Part shown: positions 1,139 through 61,657 of the stretch, one piece after another
Position numbering within the stretch: the first letter of the stretch is position 1
Layout of the letters: every line of letters starts with the position of its first letter
Origin: Methyloligella sp.
GTDB lineage: Bacteria; Pseudomonadota; Alphaproteobacteria; Rhizobiales; HXMU1428-3
NCBI GenBank assembly: GCA_021604645.1
Contig: BQJJ01000015.1
Location: 29,951 to 93,950, forward strand
Length of the DNA stretch: 64,000 nucleotides
Direction of reading: 5' to 3'
Position numbers and translations under genes: made by a program
Notes under the pieces: model-generated
The model's database searches: none
Told to the model about the DNA's origin: nothing
Seen by the model: only the letters and a program-made list of their open reading frames with translations

Positions 1139-1607
1139 TGCTGATCAGCCCGTTTCTGCTAAAAACCGTCGGTCTAGTGCAAGACTTGCAGCAGTGCAAG
1201 CGCTTTATCAAATGGATGTTGCTCAAACAGACCTGGATGAAGTGATGAAAGAGTTTGTCTCGTTTCGCTTGGGCAAAGAAGTTGAAGGCGAACATATGAG
1301 CAAAGCCGACACTGCTTTTTTCCAAGACCTGTTAGCTGGTATCGTAGAAAAGCAGCGCGAGCTAGATCCTATCATTGATACTCATTTAGCATCAAAATGG
1401 CGATTGAACCGTATCGATAGTACTTTAAGAGCGATTTTACGAGCCGGAGCCTATGAGCTAACCAGCCGAAAAGATATTCCTCACGCAGTGGTCATTAGTG
1501 AATATGTAGATGTCGCCCATGCTTTTTTTGAAAAAGATGAACCCAAAGTGGTGAACGCAGTTCTGCAAAATATTTGGAAAACAGAAAATGCAGCCGACGC
1601 CTCATAA
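1131..1607 (+). CDS. nusB: Transcription antitermination factor NusB
   Basis: NusB binds boxA RNA with S10 (NusE) and supports antitermination of rRNA transcription. The protein has the all-helical family pattern: RRSSARLAAVQALYQMD at the N-terminus, WRLNRIDSTLRAILRAGAYEL in the middle, and a C-terminal VVISEYVDVAHAFF...VNAVLQNI. The frame is open from an ATG at 1113, but the ATG at 1131 is preferred: a GAGGAC purine tract lies about 5 nt before it and the product then begins MPNADQPVSAKNRR, like homologues. It overlaps ribH by 8 nt. A copy of the long hairpin repeat separates it from thiL. Confidence 0.95.
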   Translation: MPNADQPVSAKNRRSSARLAAVQALYQMDVAQTDLDEVMKEFVSFRLGKEVEGEHMSKADTAFFQDLLAGIVEKQRELDPIIDTHLASKWRLNRIDSTLRAILRAGAYELTSRKDIPHAVVISEYVDVAHAFFEKDEPKVVNAVLQNIWKTENAADAS

Positions 1608-1642: not shown

Positions 1643-1761
1643 ATACGAAGAAGGAGTGATACCTCTTCGGCGGCAGGACATGACGCCAGGGGCGTCCGGT
1701 GCTTAGCACCGCCCCTCGGAGGCCCAAGCGCTATAAGCGCTTGGAATAGCCGTGAGAGAAA
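1643..1761 (+). repeat. Long four-hairpin repeat (type L), copy 1
   Basis: This copy lies between nusB and thiL. Conserved boxes are ATACGAAGAAGGAG, GGACATG, CTCGGAGGCC and GGAATAGCCGTGAGAGA. Hairpins 2 to 4 are perfect: GACGCC/GGCGTC, CGGTGC/GCACCG and AAGCGC/GCGCTT. Hairpin 1 (TGATACC...GGCGGCA) is decayed. The terminal GTGAGAGA sits just before the thiL ATG at 1764 and appears to be its ribosome binding site. Confidence 0.85.
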
Positions 1762-8762: not shown

Positions 8763-8791
8763 ATTTGAAATCCGTTTAGTTAATGCCCTTA

Positions 8792-8987
8792 TATGAAGAA
8801 GAGGTTTAGTCCATCCCAGACTAAGGACATGGCATAGCGCTAGCGAAGCCTGGTGCCTAGCACCGCATAGTGCGGTTGCTAGTGGGCAACTGAAGCACAA
8901 CTAAAATGTAGGCTTATGAGTTTCAGCAGCGCGGTTGCTTGTGGGCAACCTGAAGCGCAACTAAAAAAGTAATAGCCGCGAGAGATA
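8792..8987 (+). repeat. Long four-hairpin repeat (type L), copy 2, with two S insertions
   Basis: The copy starts with ATATGAAGAAGAGG. Hairpin 1 is TTAGTC/GACTAA, followed by AGGACATGG, hairpin 2 around AGCGCTAGCG, and hairpin 3 GGTGC/GCACC. An S hairpin (GTGC outer stem, GGTTGC inner stem) occupies about 8868-8906. A second S hairpin at about 8926-8968 breaks hairpin 4. The copy resumes with TAATAGCCGCGAGAGA at its end. Confidence 0.8.
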
Positions 8988-11491: not shown

Positions 11492-11639
11492 TAAGTAAAT
11501 ATTAGGCATAAACTAGCCATTTACAGTAGTCAGAGTAAAGATTTCCTTATCTTCTGCTTCATAAGAATCACTCGAAAACTATTAATTAATACTTAATTAA
11601 CTGATTTGGGTTATGTTTAATATATTCAGTTAATTCTGA

Positions 11640-11716
11640 ACAACAGAGCTTACTAGCTGCTCTGTGACGCCTCCCTGTTAACTTCCTGAGCCGCCTAATT
11701 GGCGGCTCCTTTTTTG
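11640..11716 (+). ncRNA. Candidate small RNA with anti-Shine-Dalgarno CCTCCC loop
   Basis: A 7-bp hairpin (ACAGAGC/GCTCTGT, 11643-11665) is followed by a single-stranded stretch holding CCTCCC (11670-11675). A strong intrinsic terminator (GAGCCGCC/GGCGGCTC plus T run, 11688-11716) closes it. Hairpin, exposed CCUCC and terminator is the layout of several alphaproteobacterial trans-acting sRNAs. The 5' end is estimated because no clear promoter was identified. The alternative is a terminator for DUF1192 with a chance hairpin upstream. Confidence 0.5.
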
Positions 11717-11880: not shown

Positions 11881-12429
11881 ATGTCTCGCGTAATTGATAG
11901 TAATGTAAAAGAGTCCGAAACCATTTCTTTCGGGGAACGTTTCGTAAGTTCTGAGTGTTTTAATGAGATTTTTAAAGAGGGCATGTCTCTCGTTGAAGAA
12001 ACAGCGAACTATCTAGACACAGATGGCCGCAGAGAAGCAAAAGCTCTATCTCAAACATCATCCCTTTCATATGCAACTGAAAGCATGCGTCTAACCACTC
12101 GTTTGATGCAAATGGCTTCATGGTTGCTTATCCAGCGTGCTGTGAACGAAGGCGAGATGACAGAAGAACAAGCCTCAGCTGAAAAGCACAAAGTTAAAAT
12201 CCAGGCGTCTACAAGAGCAGCACACATCAAAAACTTCAGCGAGCTACCAGCCCGCCTACAGCAATTGATTAAAAATGCAGAACGCCTGTTTGATCGCATC
12301 CACTCTCTAGATCGCATGATCCACGAAGAGCCAAAAACAAAATCAGTGGCAGATAACCCGCTAACAAAACAGTTGCAAATGCTACAAAACGCATTCGGCG
12401 CAGAAGAAATCACCCTTCCACGCTCATAA
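11881..12429 (+). CDS. rcdA: RcdA-like protein (DUF1465), adaptor for CtrA degradation
   Basis: This 182-residue helical protein matches the DUF1465/RcdA family. In Caulobacter RcdA helps deliver CtrA and other substrates to ClpXP at the G1-S transition. Typical segments are ISFGERFVSSECFNEIFKEGMSLVEETANYLDTDGR, ESMRLTTRLMQMASWLLIQRAVNEGEMT and LPARLQQLIKNAERLFDRIHSLDRM. The start ATG is preceded by AAAGAG. A terminator follows at 12463. A candidate sRNA and a short hairpin repeat precede it. The family match is good; the role in this organism is inferred. Confidence 0.82.
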   Translation: MSRVIDSNVKESETISFGERFVSSECFNEIFKEGMSLVEETANYLDTDGRREAKALSQTSSLSYATESMRLTTRLMQMASWLLIQRAVNEGEMTEEQASAEKHKVKIQASTRAAHIKNFSELPARLQQLIKNAERLFDRIHSLDRMIHEEPKTKSVADNPLTKQLQMLQNAFGAEEITLPRS

Positions 12430-12534: not shown

Positions 12535-13035
12535 ATGTCGAAATATAAAAGTCCGATTAACCTTCCTGACGAACATATGAGATTGGTTGGGATAATTGCT
12601 GCTCATTGGGAGAGCGTAAATCTAGTTTTGGATGGTTTCGTAGCATTCGTTACAATGAATGAAATAGAGAAAGTTACAGTGCTTACTAAAGAAATGTCTT
12701 TTGGAAATAAAATAAATTTGATCTTAGCTTATGCGCGACAATATAAGGCAACAAATCCGGAAATATGGAAAGAGTTTACTGAAGCAATTGATAAAGTAAG
12801 AGAAGCTAACAGTCATAGAAATGATTATGTACATGCTACATGGAAAGTCGGTTGTGCAGATGAGGCTCCTCAGCGATGGGTTTTAAGTTTAAAGAATGGA
12901 AAACTTAAAGATGAAGTCCTTGTTGTTGAAATAGATGAGTTAGAGAAAGCTGCACAATACATATATGATGCTGGACAGGCTCTTACTGATACAATGTCAA
13001 AAGTAGGCATGAAGTCATTTGTATTAGATGATTAA
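12535..13035 (+). CDS. Hypothetical protein with a HEPN-like R-x4-H motif
   Basis: I do not recognise this 166-residue helical protein. It contains Arg95-Asn-Asp-Tyr-Val-His100 (SHRNDYVHATW), which fits the R-x4-6-H signature, with a polar residue after Arg, seen in HEPN ribonuclease and abortive-infection proteins. The long preceding helices (HWESVNLVLDGFVAFV, GNKINLILAYARQY) also fit the HEPN helical bundle. It is A+T-rich and sits alone between rcdA and a type L repeat, with no obvious antitoxin or nucleotidyltransferase partner. A plain structural role is possible; the RNase idea rests on one motif. Confidence 0.6.
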   Translation: MSKYKSPINLPDEHMRLVGIIAAHWESVNLVLDGFVAFVTMNEIEKVTVLTKEMSFGNKINLILAYARQYKATNPEIWKEFTEAIDKVREANSHRNDYVHATWKVGCADEAPQRWVLSLKNGKLKDEVLVVEIDELEKAAQYIYDAGQALTDTMSKVGMKSFVLDD

Positions 13036-13062
13036 GCTTCATAGAGAAAAACAAATCTCACC

Positions 13063-13184
13063 ATACGAAGAAGGGAGTGCTCTACTTCAGAGCACGCACA
13101 TGGCGAAACGCTAGTGTAGCCCGGCGCTTAGCGCCGCACCTCGTAGGCCCAAGCGCGTCTAGCGCTTGGAATAGCCGTGAGAGA
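13063..13184 (+). repeat. Long four-hairpin repeat (type L), copy 3
   Basis: Hairpin 1 is GTGCTCT/AGAGCAC, hairpin 2 is GGC...GCC around ACGCTAGTGT, hairpin 3 CGGCGC/GCGCCG, hairpin 4 AAGCGC/GCGCTT. Linkers ATACGAAGAAGGGAG, CTCGTAGGCCC and GGAATAGCCGTGAGAGA are conserved. Confidence 0.85.
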
Positions 13185-13189
13185 AAAAA

Positions 13190-13234
13190 ACTAAAAAAAA
13201 AGCCCACAAGGCGCTTTAATCACCTGTGAGCTTT
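13190..13234 (-). terminator. Intrinsic terminator on the minus strand, downstream of rpmE
   Basis: On the minus strand AAAGCTCACAGG pairs imperfectly with CCTTGTGGGCTTT and is followed by a run of about nine T. Confidence 0.7.
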
Positions 13235-13334
13235 AATTGATTAAACCAAAAAGAATAATCTGCACTACCCGAACCCCTTGTCTGAAAGAGGAGGGAATTT
13301 CTTTTGGTCATTAAATAAACCTAGATAGCTAGGC

Positions 13335-13553
13335 CTATAGAAAACCGTCGAACTTTTTCTTAAACTTAGAAACACGGCCACCACGGTCAACAAGATGCTG
13401 GCTACCACCAGTCCAAGCTGGGTGTGTGTTTGGATCAATATCCAAAACGATCCGGTCACCTTCAACACCATATGTTGAATATGAATCTAGTTCTGTACCG
13501 TCTGTCAGTACAATCTTTACCTTATGGTAATCAGGATGAATATCTGCTTTCAT
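13335..13553 (-). CDS. rpmE: 50S ribosomal protein L31, zinc-free type
   Basis: L31 (72 residues) bridges the ribosomal subunits. The sequence begins [20 protein letters not shown] and contains [14 protein letters not shown] and [13 protein letters not shown], all standard for L31. There is no Cys pair, so this is the C-minus (zinc-independent) form. It is monocistronic on the minus strand, with a terminator at 13190-13234. About 230 bp of upstream sequence without genes precede the next repeat block. Confidence 0.95.
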
Positions 13554-13788
13554 CGCTCAAACACTCGCATATTTACGCCTCAAAAGCTGTGTCAATACAA
13601 TGACATCCAACCAGCTCAAGGCCAAGTTATAATAATGTATGGAATTCAAAAAAGAACCTATAACCGATATTAGTACACAGCGCAAGGGATAGAGGGATAA
13701 AAATATCAACTATATTGCTCTTTCCCAGATACCCGTTTTTTTATAGTAAACGAACAGAATTCTAAGAAAGTTTATCTTCTAAACTAAA

Positions 13789-13910
13789 TACACGAAGAAG
13801 GAGCTCAGCCCTTTTCGGGCTGAGGGACATGGCGAAGCACCAGCGTAGCCCGGCGCGTTGCGCCGCCCAACGGAGGGCCCGCTGTGGTAACAGCGGAATA
13901 GCCCGTGAGT
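13789..13910 (+). repeat. Long four-hairpin repeat (type L), copy 4
   Basis: Hairpin 1 CTCAGCCC/GGGCTGAG, hairpin 2 GGC..GCC around AGCACCAGCG, hairpin 3 CGGCGC/GCGCCG with loop GTT, hairpin 4 CCGCTG/CAGCGG. The linkers and the terminal ATAGCCCGTGAG are conserved. It is followed directly by copy 5. Confidence 0.85.
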
Positions 13911-13917
13911 AAAATAA

Positions 13918-14037
13918 GCAAAGAAGGAGCTCAGCCCTTTTCGGGCTGAGGGACATGGCAGCGCGAGCTGCCCGGGGCAAGCCCCGCCCCTCGGAGAGCT
14001 TTTCGCTATTTCAGCGAAAAAATAGCCCGTGAGAGAG
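13918..14037 (+). repeat. Long four-hairpin repeat (type L), copy 5
   Basis: Hairpin 1 is identical to that of copy 4 (CTCAGCCC/GGGCTGAG). Hairpin 2 is GGCAGC/GCTGCC, hairpin 3 CGGGGC/GCCCCG, hairpin 4 TTTTCGCT/AGCGAAAA. Linkers CCTCGGAG and ATAGCCCGTGAGAGAG are conserved. Confidence 0.85.
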
Positions 14038-14040
14038 AAT

Positions 14041-14079
14041 AGCGCGGTTGCATAGTGGGCAACTGAAGCGCCAATAAAA
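14041..14079 (+). repeat. Short hairpin repeat (type S)
   Basis: Inner stem GTTGC/GCAAC, loop ATAGTGG, outer GCGC arms (AGCGC..TGAAGCGC), then CAATAAAAA. It lies between L copy 5 and the end of the ABC permease gene. Confidence 0.8.
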
Positions 14080-14080
14080 A

Positions 14081-14902
14081 TCACCCCTTTTTCCCCTTTG
14101 CTTTTAGCCCGCGTGAAGGGTCATAAGCATAAATGGCTAGCCCTAGGGCAATTACACTCGTAACAGCCACCACAAGGGCTCCTTCAGCATAAAACTGGCC
14201 ATGCAGGGCAAAGCGAATGAGCTCGACGGCGTAGGTAAACGGGTTGTAGGTGCAAAATTGGTAAAATGTGTAAGAAAGGTCCTTAATGCGCCATAAGGGG
14301 AACAAGGCGCTCGAGATGAAGAACATTGGGAAAATCACAAAATTCATCACACCCGCGAAGTTCTCAAGCTGCTTAACGGTTGCTGAAAGTGCCATGCCAA
14401 GCGCTCCAAGCATGAACCCGCAAATAACCAATGCGGGTAGAACCGTGATGTAGCCAATAGGATCAATATCAAGTTCCAAAAATTCAAAATATGTAAAGAA
14501 AAATGCGATGGCTAAAAAGGCATAAACTTGCAGAAGCGACACGGCAACGCCCGCAAAAAGCCGAGCAACCAAAATAAACCAGCGGGGCAAAGGCGTGGTG
14601 AGGAGTACGCGCATGGATCCCATTTCACGGTCATAAATCATGGAAAGCGAGCTTTGCATCCCATTAAACAATTGGATCATGGCACAAAGCCCAGGGATCA
14701 TATAAACCTCATAAGGAATATATGTCTGATATGGAGCATAAGGCGCAAGACCCTGGGTTTGCCGCCAGCCGGCAGAAAAGACAAGCAGCCAAATCAAAGG
14801 CCGGACAAGTGCTGATAAAAAACGAGCACGTTGTTGGAAGAAGCGCAAAAATTCGCGGTATAAAATGCCATAAAGAGCGCGGATCATCAAACCGTCTATC
14901 AT
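14081..14902 (-). CDS. ABC-2 type permease of a PQQ-dependent alcohol oxidation system
   Basis: This 273-residue permease has six predicted membrane helices of the ABC-2 type (VRPLIWLLVFSAGW, IPYEVYMIPGLCAMIQLFNGM, FAGVAVSLLQVYAFLAIAFFF and others). The motif DREMGSMRVLLTTPLP is typical of the family next to PQQ alcohol dehydrogenase genes. Its start overlaps the ATPase stop by 4 nt (ATGA type), so the two are coupled. With the ATPase it should form an exporter; the substrate is unknown. It is assigned to the PQQ system because of the adjoining beta-propeller, binding protein and PedF cytochrome. Confidence 0.85.
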   Translation of the reverse strand: MIDGLMIRALYGILYREFLRFFQQRARFLSALVRPLIWLLVFSAGWRQTQGLAPYAPYQTYIPYEVYMIPGLCAMIQLFNGMQSSLSMIYDREMGSMRVLLTTPLPRWFILVARLFAGVAVSLLQVYAFLAIAFFFTYFEFLELDIDPIGYITVLPALVICGFMLGALGMALSATVKQLENFAGVMNFVIFPMFFISSALFPLWRIKDLSYTFYQFCTYNPFTYAVELIRFALHGQFYAEGALVVAVTSVIALGLAIYAYDPSRGLKAKGKKG

Positions 14903-41284: not shown

Positions 41285-41324
41285 CTCGTTAGGGACAAAA
41301 ACTAATTAAAACTTGATCCAGAGA

Positions 41325-41438
41325 TCCGAAGAAGGAGTACTGCCCTTTTTCAGGGCAGTAGGACATGACGCCAGGGGCGTCCGGCGCTTAGCGCCGCACC
41401 TCGTAGGCTCGAGCGTAGCGAGGAATGGCCGTGAGAGA
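41325..41438 (+). repeat. Long four-hairpin repeat (type L), copy 6
   Basis: Hairpin 1 TACTGCCC/GGGCAGTA, hairpin 2 GACGCC/GGCGTC, hairpin 3 CGGCGC/GCGCCG, hairpin 4 CTCG/CGAG around AGCGTAG. Linkers CGAAGAAGGAG, AGGACATG and CTCGTAGGC and the end GGAATGGCCGTGAGAGA are conserved. Confidence 0.85.
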
Positions 41439-46483: not shown

Positions 46484-46655
46484 ATACGAAGGGGAAATTC
46501 TCTCCGATTTAAGGGAGCATAACATGGCAGCCAAGCTGCCTGGAGTACAAGATCAGCCTGAGCGGAGTTGTTTAGCGAGCGCAGATAAGTTGATCGTAAG
46601 AAACACCGCCCCTCGGAAGCCCAGGCGCCATAAGCACTTGGAATAAATGTAAGTG
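46484..46655 (+). repeat. Long four-hairpin repeat (type L), copy 7, with T insertion
   Basis: A diverged copy. Box TACGAAGGGG, an imperfect hairpin 1, AACATGG, and hairpin 2 GGCAGC/GCTGCC are present. A ~60-bp T module (46544-46603) takes the place of hairpin 3, followed by CCTCGGAAGCCC and an imperfect hairpin 4 with GGAATAAATGT. Confidence 0.72.
46544..46603 (+). repeat. Module T, copy 1, inside a type L repeat
   Basis: Begins GTACAAGATCAGCC and ends AAGTTGATCGTAAG; the ends pair (GATCAG with TTGATC). Internal blocks CGGAG, AGCGAG and AGATAAG recur in the second copy at 57125-57180. Confidence 0.7.
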
Positions 46656-46668
46656 AAGAAAGTGAGCT

Positions 46669-46790
46669 ATCCGAAGAAGGAGCTCTGCCCTTTTCGGGCT
46701 GAGGGACATGGCAGCCAAGCTGCCCGGGGCAAGCCCCGCCCTTCGGAGGCCCAAGCGCCATAAGCGCTTGGAATAGCCGTGAGAGAGAGA
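46669..46790 (+). repeat. Long four-hairpin repeat (type L), copy 8
   Basis: Hairpin 1 CTCTGCCC/GGGCTGAG (one mismatch), hairpin 2 GGCAGC/GCTGCC with loop CAA, hairpin 3 CGGGGC/GCCCCG, hairpin 4 AAGCGC/GCGCTT. The end GGAATAGCCGTGAGAGAGAG directly precedes the MerR ATG at 46792 and supplies its purine-rich leader. Confidence 0.85.
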
Positions 46791-57036: not shown

Positions 57037-57241
57037 TCTCTCACGGCTATTTCAAACGCTATCGCGTTTGAGCCTGCATTTTTGTGGTGCTTCAGATTGC
57101 CCAATAGCAACCGCACTATGCGGCGTACAAGATCAGTCCGAACGGAGCGTAGCGAGTACGGATAAGCTGATCGCAAAAAATTCCGGGCAGCCCTGCTGCC
57201 ATGTCCCTCAGCCCGAAGTGGCTGAGCTCCTTCTTCGTATA
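57037..57241 (-). repeat. Long four-hairpin repeat (type L), copy 9, reversed, with S and T insertions
   Basis: On the minus strand it starts ATACGAAGAAGGAG, hairpin 1 CTCAGCC/GGGCTGAG, GGACATG, hairpin 2 GGCAGC/GCTGCC. A T module (57125-57180) and an S hairpin (57077-57120) follow. After these come hairpin 4 TCAAACGC/GCGTTTGA and AATAGCCGTGAGAG. It is the only L copy seen in reverse orientation. Confidence 0.82.
57125..57180 (-). repeat. Module T, copy 2, inside a reversed type L repeat
   Basis: Shares GTACAAGATCAG, CGGAG, AGCGAG and GATAAGCTGATCG with the copy at 46544, and has the same neighbour, hairpin 2 of a type L repeat, on one side. Confidence 0.7.
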
Positions 57242-57286: not shown

Positions 57287-57413
57287 AGTGTGGCTTGGTG
57301 GGGATGATAACCGTTTGCGGTGAGTTTAGTGGAGTGTGGTGGGAGGGCGGAGTGCTGAGTTTTTAGTTCTGAGTACTCACTATAAACTTATTCCCACGGG
57401 TGTTATCTCCCTT

Positions 57414-57560
57414 TACGAAGAAGGAGTGATGCCACTTCGGCGTCAGGACATGGTAGCAGGGTTGCCCGGGGTGAGTGCTGCACAGTGCGGTTGCTTGTGG
57501 GCAACTGAAGCACAGCAAAAAAGTAGGCCCGAGCGTAGCGAGGAATAGCCGTGAGAGAGA
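57414..57560 (+). repeat. Long four-hairpin repeat (type L), copy 10, with S insertion
   Basis: Hairpin 1 TGATGCC/GGCGTCA, hairpin 2 GGTAGC/GTTGCC. An S hairpin (57483-57522, outer GTGC/GCAC, inner GGTTGC/GCAAC) sits between the remains of hairpin 3 and the GTAGGCCC linker. It ends with GGAATAGCCGTGAGAGAG. The bases around it (57287-57413, 57561-57733) hold no gene I can support. Confidence 0.82.
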
Positions 57561-59419: not shown

Positions 59420-59536
59420 ATACGAAGAAGGAGCCCAGCCTTTTAGGCTGGGGGACATGACGCCAGGGGCGTCCGGCGCGTTGCGCCGCACCTCGTAGGC
59501 CCATGAGCTTCAGCTCATGGAATAGCCGTGAGAGAA
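59420..59536 (+). repeat. Long four-hairpin repeat (type L), copy 11
   Basis: Hairpin 1 CCCAGCC/GGCTGGG, hairpin 2 GACGCC/GGCGTC, hairpin 3 CGGCGC/GCGCCG, hairpin 4 ATGAGCT/AGCTCAT. Linkers and the GGAATAGCCGTGAGAGA end are perfect. Confidence 0.88.
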
Positions 59537-59550
59537 AATAAAAGCTAGCT

Positions 59551-59706
59551 ATACGAAGAAGGAGTGACGCCACTTCGGCGTCAGGACATGGCAGCGAGAG
59601 CTGCCCGGCGTGAGCGCCGCACAGTGTGGATGCATCGTGGGCATCTTAAGCACCACAAAAATGTAGGCCTATGAGCTTTAGCTCATAGAATAGCCGTGAG
59701 AGAGAG
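59551..59706 (+). repeat. Long four-hairpin repeat (type L), copy 12, with S insertion
   Basis: Hairpin 1 TGACGCC/GGCGTCA, hairpin 2 GGCAGC/GCTGCC, hairpin 3 CGGCG/CGCCG. An S hairpin (59621-59661, inner GGATGC/GCATCT) is inserted before TGTAGGCC. Then hairpin 4 ATGAGCT/AGCTCAT and AATAGCCGTGAGAGAG. It is in tandem with copy 11. Confidence 0.85.
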
Positions 59707-60462: not shown

Positions 60463-61593
60463 ATGGTACTGTCTTCAACCAACACTCCAACAGAAAAACA
60501 AATCAAAGCCCGTCCCGCCATTCAGCTATGGCTCTTTATGATCTGCGCACTTATTTTTGCAATGGTCATCGTTGGCGGTGCCACACGCCTCACCGGCTCT
60601 GGACTTTCGATTACTGAGTGGAAACCAATTGTCGGCGCCATTCCTCCTTTGAATGTCGAGGATTGGAACGATGCCTTTGAGAAATACAAACAAATCCCGC
60701 AATATACTAAAATAAACCAAGGTATGAGCCTTAATGAGTTTAAATCCATCTTCTGGTGGGAGTGGGCACACCGCTTTTTAGGCCGCTTCATTGGCGTCGC
60801 GTTTTTGCTCCCCTTTTTATTCTTCCTTTTTACCAAGCGCGTTGAAAGCTCACTAAAACCAAAATTCTGGCTGATGTTCCTCGGCGGCGGCCTGCAAGGT
60901 TTTGTTGGATGGTACATGGTCGCAAGCGGTTTAACCGAGCGCGTTGATGTAAGCCAATACCGCCTCGCCGCTCACTTAGGTCTAGCCGTGCTGTTGTTCT
61001 CTTATATCTTCTGGGGCGCTATTGGACTTAGACGTGATGATGTTGCGGCGGTTTCTGGTGGGAAACTGAAGCCGCATCAAAAGAGTGGGCAACTGAAGGC
61101 GCACTTAAAAAGCCCGGCCTATTTCATCACTGGTTTAATCTTCTTTCAGATCATTGCTGGTGCCTTTGTCGCTGGTCTGAAAGCTGGTAAAGTCCACAAC
61201 ACCTGGCCGCTAATGGATGGTCGTTTCATTCCAGAAGGTCTGGGTGTCATGACACCTTTTTGGAAAAACCTGTTTGAAAATGTCCTCACTGTTCAGTTCA
61301 ATCACCGGATGATAGCATATGTGATCGCCATCGTCGTGCTCTTGCATTTCATCCAGTGCCTGATCTCAAAAAGTGAATTGGCCATCAAAGGCGCAATGCC
61401 GTTGCTTGTCCTAACTTTTGCGCAAATCGCGCTGGGTATCGTAACTCTCTTGCAATTCGTACCCCTAGACCTCGCGCTCTACCACCAAGGCGGTGCAGTC
61501 ATCCTCCTAAGCGTCAGCCTCTGGCACAGCCGGAATTTATACAGCGCGGTTGCTTGTGGGCAACCTGAAGCGCCACTAAAAAACGGTTGCTAG
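60463..61593 (+). CDS. ctaA: Heme A synthase (COX15/CtaA) with repeat-encoded segments
   Basis: CtaA oxidises heme O to heme A for cytochrome oxidase. The 376-residue protein has eight predicted helices and all four conserved His contexts: WEWAHRFLGR, AAHLGLA, FNHRMIAY and LYHQGG. Between helices 4 and 5, residues 193-216 (about DVAAVSGGKLKPHQKSGQLK) are encoded by a nested type S repeat inserted in frame. The last 16 residues (SAVACGQPEAPLKNGC) are read from a further S copy, and the stop TAG is in the loop of the next. The conserved core is intact, so the enzyme may still work. GAGG precedes the ATG. Confidence 0.93.
   Translation: MVLSSTNTPTEKQIKARPAIQLWLFMICALIFAMVIVGGATRLTGSGLSITEWKPIVGAIPPLNVEDWNDAFEKYKQIPQYTKINQGMSLNEFKSIFWWEWAHRFLGRFIGVAFLLPFLFFLFTKRVESSLKPKFWLMFLGGGLQGFVGWYMVASGLTERVDVSQYRLAAHLGLAVLLFSYIFWGAIGLRRDDVAAVSGGKLKPHQKSGQLKAHLKSPAYFITGLIFFQIIAGAFVAGLKAGKVHNTWPLMDGRFIPEGLGVMTPFWKNLFENVLTVQFNHRMIAYVIAIVVLLHFIQCLISKSELAIKGAMPLLVLTFAQIALGIVTLLQFVPLDLALYHQGGAVILLSVSLWHSRNLYSAVACGQPEAPLKNGC
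61041..61111 (+). repeat. Nested short hairpin repeat (type S) inside ctaA
   Basis: Outer arms GTTGC / GGCAAC with TGAAGGCGCAC enclose an inner S hairpin, GGC outer stem and GGTTTC/GAAAC inner stem around TGGTGG, with spacer ATCAAAAGAG. The insertion keeps the reading frame. Confidence 0.82.
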
Positions 61594-61657
61594 TGGGCAA
61601 CCTAAAGCCGAACAAAAAGGCGGTTGCAAGTGGGCAAATGAAGGAGCGCTAAAAAAG
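61543..61657 (+). repeat. Three tandem short hairpin repeats (type S) at the end of ctaA
   Basis: Units begin near 61543, 61581 and 61620. The first two are GGTTGC/GCAACC hairpins with loops TTGTGG and TAGTGG; the third (GGTTGC...GCAAAT) is partly decayed and ends TGAAGGAGCGC. Confidence 0.83.

Follow-up and report, generated by a model that had tools for sequence, protein, structure and literature searches.

Type L, a four-hairpin DNA repeat of Methyloligella with skew-linked orientation and hairpins replaced between sister species

A DNA repeat of about 120 bases composed of four hairpins, here called type L, was characterized from a stretch of 64,000 nucleotides of Methyloligella sp. (assembly GCA_021604645.1, contig BQJJ01000015.1, positions 29,951 to 93,950), hereafter the window, and from the genome that contains it (G000). 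The copies share a fold with covarying stems, an orientation that follows strand skew, and an excess of G·T over A·C cells in their stems. Hairpins have been replaced at orthologous sites of the sister species G002, and no association was detected between the hairpin types occupying the four slots. The repeat contains no gene. Our tentative reading, to which we give somewhat less than an even chance, is that type L, folded as single-stranded DNA, spreads and converts at replication forks.

Copies and their detection

A covariance model was trained on 52 insert-free copies (54 less the truncated L033 and L077), of which 47 lie outside the window and 5 are among its 12 copies. The preliminary description of the window had listed twelve copies and proposed a genome-wide search with such a model; the model returns precisely those twelve within the window and at least 150 copies in G000. 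The stem sequences quoted in that description are present in the window copies. From 44 model matches in 484 kb (the window, another 20 kb of the contig to which it belongs, and 20 samples of 20 kb each placed at round positions), about 325 copies are extrapolated for the 3.57 Mb of G000. A simple pattern of the conserved boxes matches 86 sites in G000, and the reversed control pattern matches 0. In the window, the box GAAGAAGGAG has 8 exact occurrences against a shuffle mean of 0.11, and the box AATAGCCGTGAG has 11 occurrences at no more than one mismatch against a mean of 0.26; two of the latter (23221 and 46450) fall outside the listed copies. An inverted-repeat finder (seed 9, minimum 12) detected none over 13000-14100, probably because the stems of type L are short. 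Copy density differs about 10-fold among G000 contigs (C14, C15, C19 and C6 versus C3, C7, C8 and C10; at least 150 matches), and these differences possibly track distance from the origin.

Structure and folding strand

Type L consists, in order, of an A-rich segment, a weakly conserved CTAACTATAC, GAAGAAGGAG, stem 1 (S1), GGACATG, stem 2 (S2), stem 3 (S3, CGGCGC..GCGCCG), C(A/C)CCTCG(T/G)AGG, stem 4 (S4), AATAGCCGTGAGAGA and a second A-rich segment. The four-slot layout proposed from the window holds, with the correction that the fourth hairpin is compound and the linkers CTCG.AGGCC and AATAGCCGTGAG partly pair with each other. RNAalifold and counting place CTC opposite GAG and GGC opposite GCC in pairs that flank S4, with AATA bulged out. 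The change of AGGC to AGGGC is mostly accompanied by a change of GCCG to GCCCG within the same copy, and exceptions exist.

Standard pairs fill 92.5% of the cells over 34 pairs of the covariance alignment. Double-sided changes occur at 25 of the 34 pairs, and 263 cells are changed on both sides, a value as high being found in 0 of 500 shuffles; only 33-45% of cells pair in slid-partner controls. The copies tested are also those from which the structure was derived, which gives it an advantage over the slid versions, and relatedness among copies inflates shuffle tests, so these results are not to be read as probabilities. In 94 copies (leaving out locus L036, a GC-rich match that lacks the remaining layout), 6.78 of the 7 positions of S1 are paired, compared with 4.69 when the arms are shuffled between copies. 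Neither outcome that the preliminary description named as refuting it, unpaired stems in copies across the genome or a match to a described family (sought in Rfam), was obtained.

The non-Watson-Crick cells of stems 1-4 comprise 46 G·T, 16 A·C and 43 other mismatches in G000, and 44, 15 and 52, respectively, in G002. An earlier count on alignment A2 gave 49 G·T and 19 A·C, with eight of the A·C cells coming from one misaligned column pair. The sense strand of type L is the A- and C-rich strand, on which mutation pressure of the skew type would favour A·C; the G·T excess therefore points to selection on the sense strand to fold. Equal numbers of G·T and A·C would be expected from a process acting on double-stranded DNA or by template correction. 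Judged from these alignments, the sense strand seems to be the strand that folds, under selection. The preliminary description had offered selection on folding as one of two explanations of the stems, and it is supported by pairing and covariation above all 500 shuffles and the slid controls and by G·T cells outnumbering A·C cells.

Orientation and strand skew

The orientation of type L is tied to a replication-type strand skew, a property absent from the preliminary description. The majority orientation of the contig is matched by 84 of the 86 pattern copies in G000 (simulated mean 58, largest 71 in 100,000), by 143 of 148 covariance-model copies (contigs with at least two matches, among the matches listed), by 42 of 44 copies in the stretches chosen without regard to type L, and by 90 of 92 copies in G002. 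Strand-corrected AT skew at fourfold sites predicts the sign of the orientation in 23 of 23 contigs and 165 of 169 copies, the contigs being those with at least 100 fourfold sites on the genes of each strand (seven contigs with fewer sites were excluded). At these sites, 21 of the 23 contigs show GC skew of the opposite sign, as expected. Open reading frames (ORFs) in the 20 sampled stretches total 203 kb on the strand opposite to the type L sense and 113 kb on that of the sense, so the type L sense would, under the usual rule, have the sequence of the lagging strand. In G032, which belongs to another family, the copies on contigs with more than one of them all follow the orientation of their contig (27 of 27), tandem copies among them not being independent.

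Opposite-strand neighbours less than 400 bp apart are head-to-head in 19 of 19 cases (G018, G000, G007 and G005, among the matches listed). This count leaves out the partial-model matches G007:C24:239325 and G007:C13:53684, and the 400-bp limit omits wider pairs, of which at least one is tail-to-tail (G018:C59, 61126+ and 61763-). Thirteen head-to-head pairs are adjacent in G018 and 3 occur among the listed G000 matches. Three of the five minority copies of G000 belong to listed head-to-head pairs, the window copy at 57037 faces that at 57413, and one stands alone. Such uniform head-to-head pairing is what one polarity of strand switching would give.

Replacement of hairpins between sister species

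Hairpins are replaced at the same chromosomal site in the sister species, an observation that goes beyond the preliminary description. The fetched G002 sequence contains both flanks for 54 of the 95 distinct G000 copies, and at 49 of the 54 sites G002 has at least one type L (exactly one copy at 44 sites and two at 5, the other 5 having none); the sites are ascertained, the G002 loci having been fetched for a type L copy. At the 40 of the 44 one-to-one sites that parsed, hairpins were replaced (less than 80% identity) in 15/40 cases for S1, 18/36 for S2, 17/30 for S3 and 16/31 for S4, although S3 and S4 are short and some of these calls may represent a few point changes. The replaced share per slot is 38-57%, and the identities of the flanks of G000 and G002 are 82-97%.

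By eye, some pairs (e.g., L060/L231 and L066/L235) show almost no differences along their whole length. Others (L043/L267, L021/L254, L053/L278 and L057/L228) are mosaics: one side is vertically inherited and, by eye, nearly identical, and the other has been replaced, with breakpoints in or near the linkers. The extra G002 copies stand in tandem with or beside older ones. Within G000, no association between slot types was seen in any of the six slot pairs (n 37-80, p 0.21-0.51). The power of this test is limited: of 89 copies, S2 could be parsed in 80, S3 in 47 and S4 in 64, and rare types (under four occurrences) were pooled. A number of stem alleles are frequent in G000 as well as in G002. 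Slot replacement, unassociated slots and common alleles are predicted by frequent exchange between copies. The second explanation offered from the window, a mechanism that swaps hairpins, accordingly gains support from the replacement at orthologous sites and the undetected slot association.

Proposed mechanism and alternative explanations

In the proposed mechanism, the G/T-rich strand would be the leading strand. A sense-strand fragment, which has the polarity of the nascent lagging strand, would anneal via the conserved linkers to the exposed lagging-strand template at another copy and would be copied in, replacing one or more hairpins. The rarer new insertions of type L may arise in the same way, and folding would be selected because the fold protects or delivers the fragment. 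Fork-coupled single-strand copying and annealing is preferred because one process would yield the orientation, the linker-bounded swapping and the single polarity of inverted duplication. A bolder form, which we consider doubtful, takes type L as a selfish fork element without a gene or dedicated enzyme: the folded sense fragment, set free from the lagging strand or synthesized on it, would anneal to the lagging-strand template elsewhere, insert in fork polarity and trade hairpins slotwise.

Several points weigh against fork-coupled copying. Neither an intermediate, an enzyme nor a transcript behind it has been observed, and the steps beyond the patterns are inferred. Replication direction was deduced from skew, and AT skew was picked after the 20-kb samples had been viewed; of the seven site-poor contigs outside the 23, six agree and G002:C11 contradicts. 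The possible polar replication marker GGGCAGGG gives a mixed picture, lying on the strand opposite type L at 31 of 51 sites (17/18 on C2-C4 but 1/12 on C1, C7 and C10). Genes predict orientation weakly, the upstream neighbour being on the same strand in 53/81 cases and the downstream neighbour in 34/83, and the same figures weaken transcription as the cause of orientation. G018 contains mostly inverted pairs, and its orientation is not strand-locked (26/43). The cells of the wobble test are not independent, and S4 alone in G000 has no wobble asymmetry (5 versus 5). Ordinary gene conversion would also produce mosaics. One insertion is flanked by a 12-bp direct repeat, CCATAACTCACC, so a staggered-cut transposase could be involved; the spread may have begun with a transposase, with ordinary gene conversion acting afterwards.

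A transposase is also invoked by the alternative that survives best, which we regard as unlikely. Type L would be a repeat similar to REP or REPIN sequences that was moved on lagging-strand single-stranded DNA by a Y1 (HUH) transposase of the RAYT or IS200 type, with the transposase since mostly lost and later conversion shuffling the hairpins. G000 contains two Y1 genes close together (C1:11499-11819 and C1:15047-15370, in frames of 225 and 224 aa), the head-to-head pairs resemble REPINs, GGAG is found at the 5' foot of S1, and Y1 genes are more frequent in genomes with model matches (6 of 19, including G018 and G033) than in those without (2 of 22), a further point against the fork reading. 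Against the transposase, no type L box lies within about 1.5 kb of the two genes, PF01797 (Y1) was detected in 8 of 41 genomes and in none of the seven other genus members searched, and type L lacks the GTAG or CGTC tag given in the available part of the defining text (PMC3733652). On the 5' side of the 52 aligned copies GAAGAAGGAG is invariant, these copies having been selected for GAAGAAGGAG. Y1/RAYT as the present mobiliser is weakened by the absence of a Y1 match from the element-rich genomes G002 (99% complete, 92 pattern copies) and G032 (100% complete, 32 model matches).

Selection at the level of RNA is a less probable explanation, by which type L would be a transcribed structured RNA, such as a stabiliser in the 3' untranslated region (3'-UTR), an attenuator or a small RNA (sRNA), with the strand bias as a by-product. 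The sense-strand folding signature fits such an RNA, and 28 of the 81 copies with both neighbours called lie between convergent genes and 9 between divergent genes (no genome baseline). Transcription has been reported for Bradyrhizobium 3'-UTR repeats that have three stem-loops (PMC5082802). However, type L orientation tracks strand skew (165/169) but genes weakly, and no Rfam family fits. The conserved segment upstream, A-rich with the weak CTAACTATAC, has no -35 element visible by eye, no promoter test having been run.

An unselected fold is very unlikely. Template-switch correction of quasi-palindromes would then pair the stems, and purging by recombination of inverted repeats on the same replichore would leave a single orientation in each replichore. 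Such correction is replication-strand dependent, which counts in favour of this explanation, and both the swapping and the inverted pairs are compatible with template switching. It predicts, however, equal numbers of G·T and A·C, whereas 46 and 16 are observed; a repeat of about 120 bp with differing stems would be a poor substrate for inversion, and the insert 1 repeat of about 38 bp shares the type L orientation. Least probable of all is a polar chromosome signal similar to KOPS (FtsK-orienting polar sequences) or AIMS (architecture-imparting sequences), with orientation kept by selection, which would suit the skew-linked orientation and the very uneven copy density between contigs but not the many copies that are degenerate or contain large insertions, nor the dominance of the inverted-pair form in G018.

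A reverse transcriptase, as in a derivative of a group II intron or retroelement, is disfavoured. RVT_1 is absent from G000, G002, G003 and G032, of which G002 and G032 are element-rich, and it is present in 10 of 41 genomes, including 4 of the 19 with model matches. A plasmid or phage origin is likewise disfavoured, one window copy having zero matches at blastn sensitivity to 72,556 plasmid and 50,697 phage records; the relative from G033 gave a single weak partial match (E 0.009), inside an annotated gene on a Pseudoroseomonas plasmid, which we attribute to chance.

Distribution and relation to known repeats

The exact box pattern was detected in 6 of 8 genus members and elsewhere in 1 of 53 genomes, as a single match in G052. 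The covariance model matches 19 of 41 genomes, which comprise the eight genus members without exception and genomes from further families of the order; among the latter, at least 6 matches each are found in G018, G032, G033 and G009, and one to five in the rest. Outside the order, where 289 genomes were searched, three class members have at least 3-7 matches and three genomes have one. Among the matches listed, the named genomes with repeated matches are the Hyphomicrobiales metagenome-assembled genomes (MAGs) HXMU1428-3 and OFTM213 and the Hyphomicrobiaceae MAG OFTM222, and the remaining named-genome matches are mostly single. Shared match positions link OFTM213 with G003 (2172 and 6443 on its contigs) and HXMU1428-3 with G006 (5409).

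Repeats of the same layout but with another first hairpin occur in other families of the order. In the relatives' loci inspected, the S1 slot is occupied by a different hairpin and the last linker varies, and the core S2-S3-CGnAG-S4-GTGAG(C/A)GA is kept by eye. In G004, of the same genus, the S1 arms are much longer between the same boxes. The G018 relatives L293, L299, L305, L311 and L317 are head-to-head pairs, many of them about 10 bp apart.

No Rfam family fits type L: none scored above the cut-off on 8 loci, and elsewhere in the window Rfam matches only a tRNA and BjrC1505. The Brucella sRNA BASRCI27 weakly matches the G009 relative L294 (32.8 bits versus a cut-off of 59.8) at locus positions 1408-1547 (-), covering the S1 hairpin region only and leaving the type L core unmatched. 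This S1 region resembles a palindrome that we take to be present in many Rhizobiales genomes. Fungal mitochondrial double-hairpin elements and GC clusters are mobile hairpins with compensated stems, as is seen in type L. They are organellar, and we know of no replication-strand orientation or four-slot layout in them. The preliminary description knew of no repeat with the type L layout, and none turned up among the titles and abstract openings from a text search of the literature, which covered mainly openly accessible papers.

Similar to the REP, BIME and REPIN sequences associated with RAYT (TnpA_REP), type L is a high-copy intergenic palindromic repeat, and its G018 relatives are arranged head-to-head. 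It differs in having four hairpins rather than one, a skew-linked orientation and freely assorting hairpin slots, and 13 of the 19 type L carriers have no Y1 gene. With the IS200/IS605 family, type L shares single-strand hairpins and a replication-strand bias; unlike that family it has no transposase gene seen and is pure structure of about 120 bp. The orientation bias with respect to replication strand that is used to recognize miniature inverted-repeat transposable elements derived from IS200/IS605 is found in type L in 23 of 23 contigs by skew. Br-REP1 and Br-REP2 of Bradyrhizobium are also alphaproteobacterial intergenic repeats of several palindromes. They are transcribed in 3'-UTRs, and their flanking palindromes vary between species; they differ from type L in sequence and in having three palindromes, and the available part of PMC5082802 does not mention replication orientation.

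Copies in the window and nested elements

All twelve window copies are model matches. The copy at 1643..1759 (+) has S1 TGATACC/GGCGGCA, S2 GACGCC/GGCGTC and S4 CCAAGCGC/GCGCTTGG, and S4 is different at the orthologous G002 site. The copy at 8791..8985 (+; model match 8791-8903) has S1 TTAGTC/GACTAA and is broken by two insert-1 hairpin repeats. The S1 of the copy at 13063..13184 (+), GTGCTCT/AGAGCAC, is retained at the orthologous G002 site, which carries other S2 and S4 hairpins.

A tandem pair follows, at the coordinates singled out in the preliminary description (13789..14037). The first copy (13790..13912, +) contains S1 CTCAGCCC/GGGCTGAG at 13804-13824, GGACATG at 13825-13831, a long S2, S3 CGGCGC/GCGCCG and S4 in the AGGGC...AATAGCCC form. 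At the site of the second copy (13916..14036, +), S2-S3-S4 are nearly unchanged in G002, and S1 is TGACGCC/GGCGTCA where G000 has CTCAGCCC/GGGCTGAG. The copy at 41324..41438 (+) has S1 TACTGCCC/GGGCAGTA.

The copy at 46484..46656 (+; 47 bits) is degenerate, with an insert-2-like repeat within the S3 loop, and it and the copy at 8791 are the degenerate or interrupted copies of the window. At the G002 site of the copy at 46669..46786 (+), S1 and S2 are replaced, S3 differs by one pair and S4 is retained. The copy at 57037..57240 (-), in the minority orientation, holds insert 2 and insert 1 and is head-to-head with that at 57413..57558 (+), in which insert 1 lies between S3 and S4. The copy at 59420..59535 (+; 133 bits) has S1 CCCAGCC/GGCTGGG and stands in tandem with that at 59551..59703 (+), which contains insert 1. 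Other small hairpin repeats thus sit inside the copies at 8791, 46484, 57037, 57413 and 59551.

Insert 1 is a hairpin repeat of about 37-38 bp (GCGGTTGC..GTGGGCAAC..GAAGCGCCACTAAAA) that is nested in type L copies and whose outer stem varies. In the window it is found at 8872, 8931, 14044, 57487, 60135 and 61546-61655 on the (+) strand and at 57096 on the (-) strand; the repeats at 61546..61655 form a three-unit tandem outside type L with a unit of about 37 bp (GCGGTTGC..GTGGGCAAC..GAAGC). Its orientation agrees with that of type L in 42 of 44 cases by one pattern and 39 of 44 by a second. Insert 2 (GATCAGCCCGAACGGAGC..GTACGGATAAGCTGATC) occurs in the S3 loop, at 57131 in the window and in many copies (e.g., L013 and L025). 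It is reversed relative to the reversed type L copy at 57037-57240, so its absolute orientation is kept, and it agrees with type L orientation in 10 of 16 cases by a loose pattern and 6 of 6 by a second pattern. The Rfam sRNA BjrC1505 (RF02356) was detected at 11581-11715 (+; 57.8 bits), upstream of the ORF at 11881.

Implications

Dispersed palindromic repeats are common in bacteria, and their spread and the maintenance of their pairing are poorly known. Type L gives a handle on both, through its skew-tied orientation and the unit-wise replacement of its hairpins in sister species. If its bolder form, the selfish fork element, is true, a population of hairpin modules would be recombining on single-stranded DNA across a bacterial chromosome and would be ancient in Hyphomicrobiales. 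With type L, the comparison of strains offers a direct test of single-strand exchange at replication forks.
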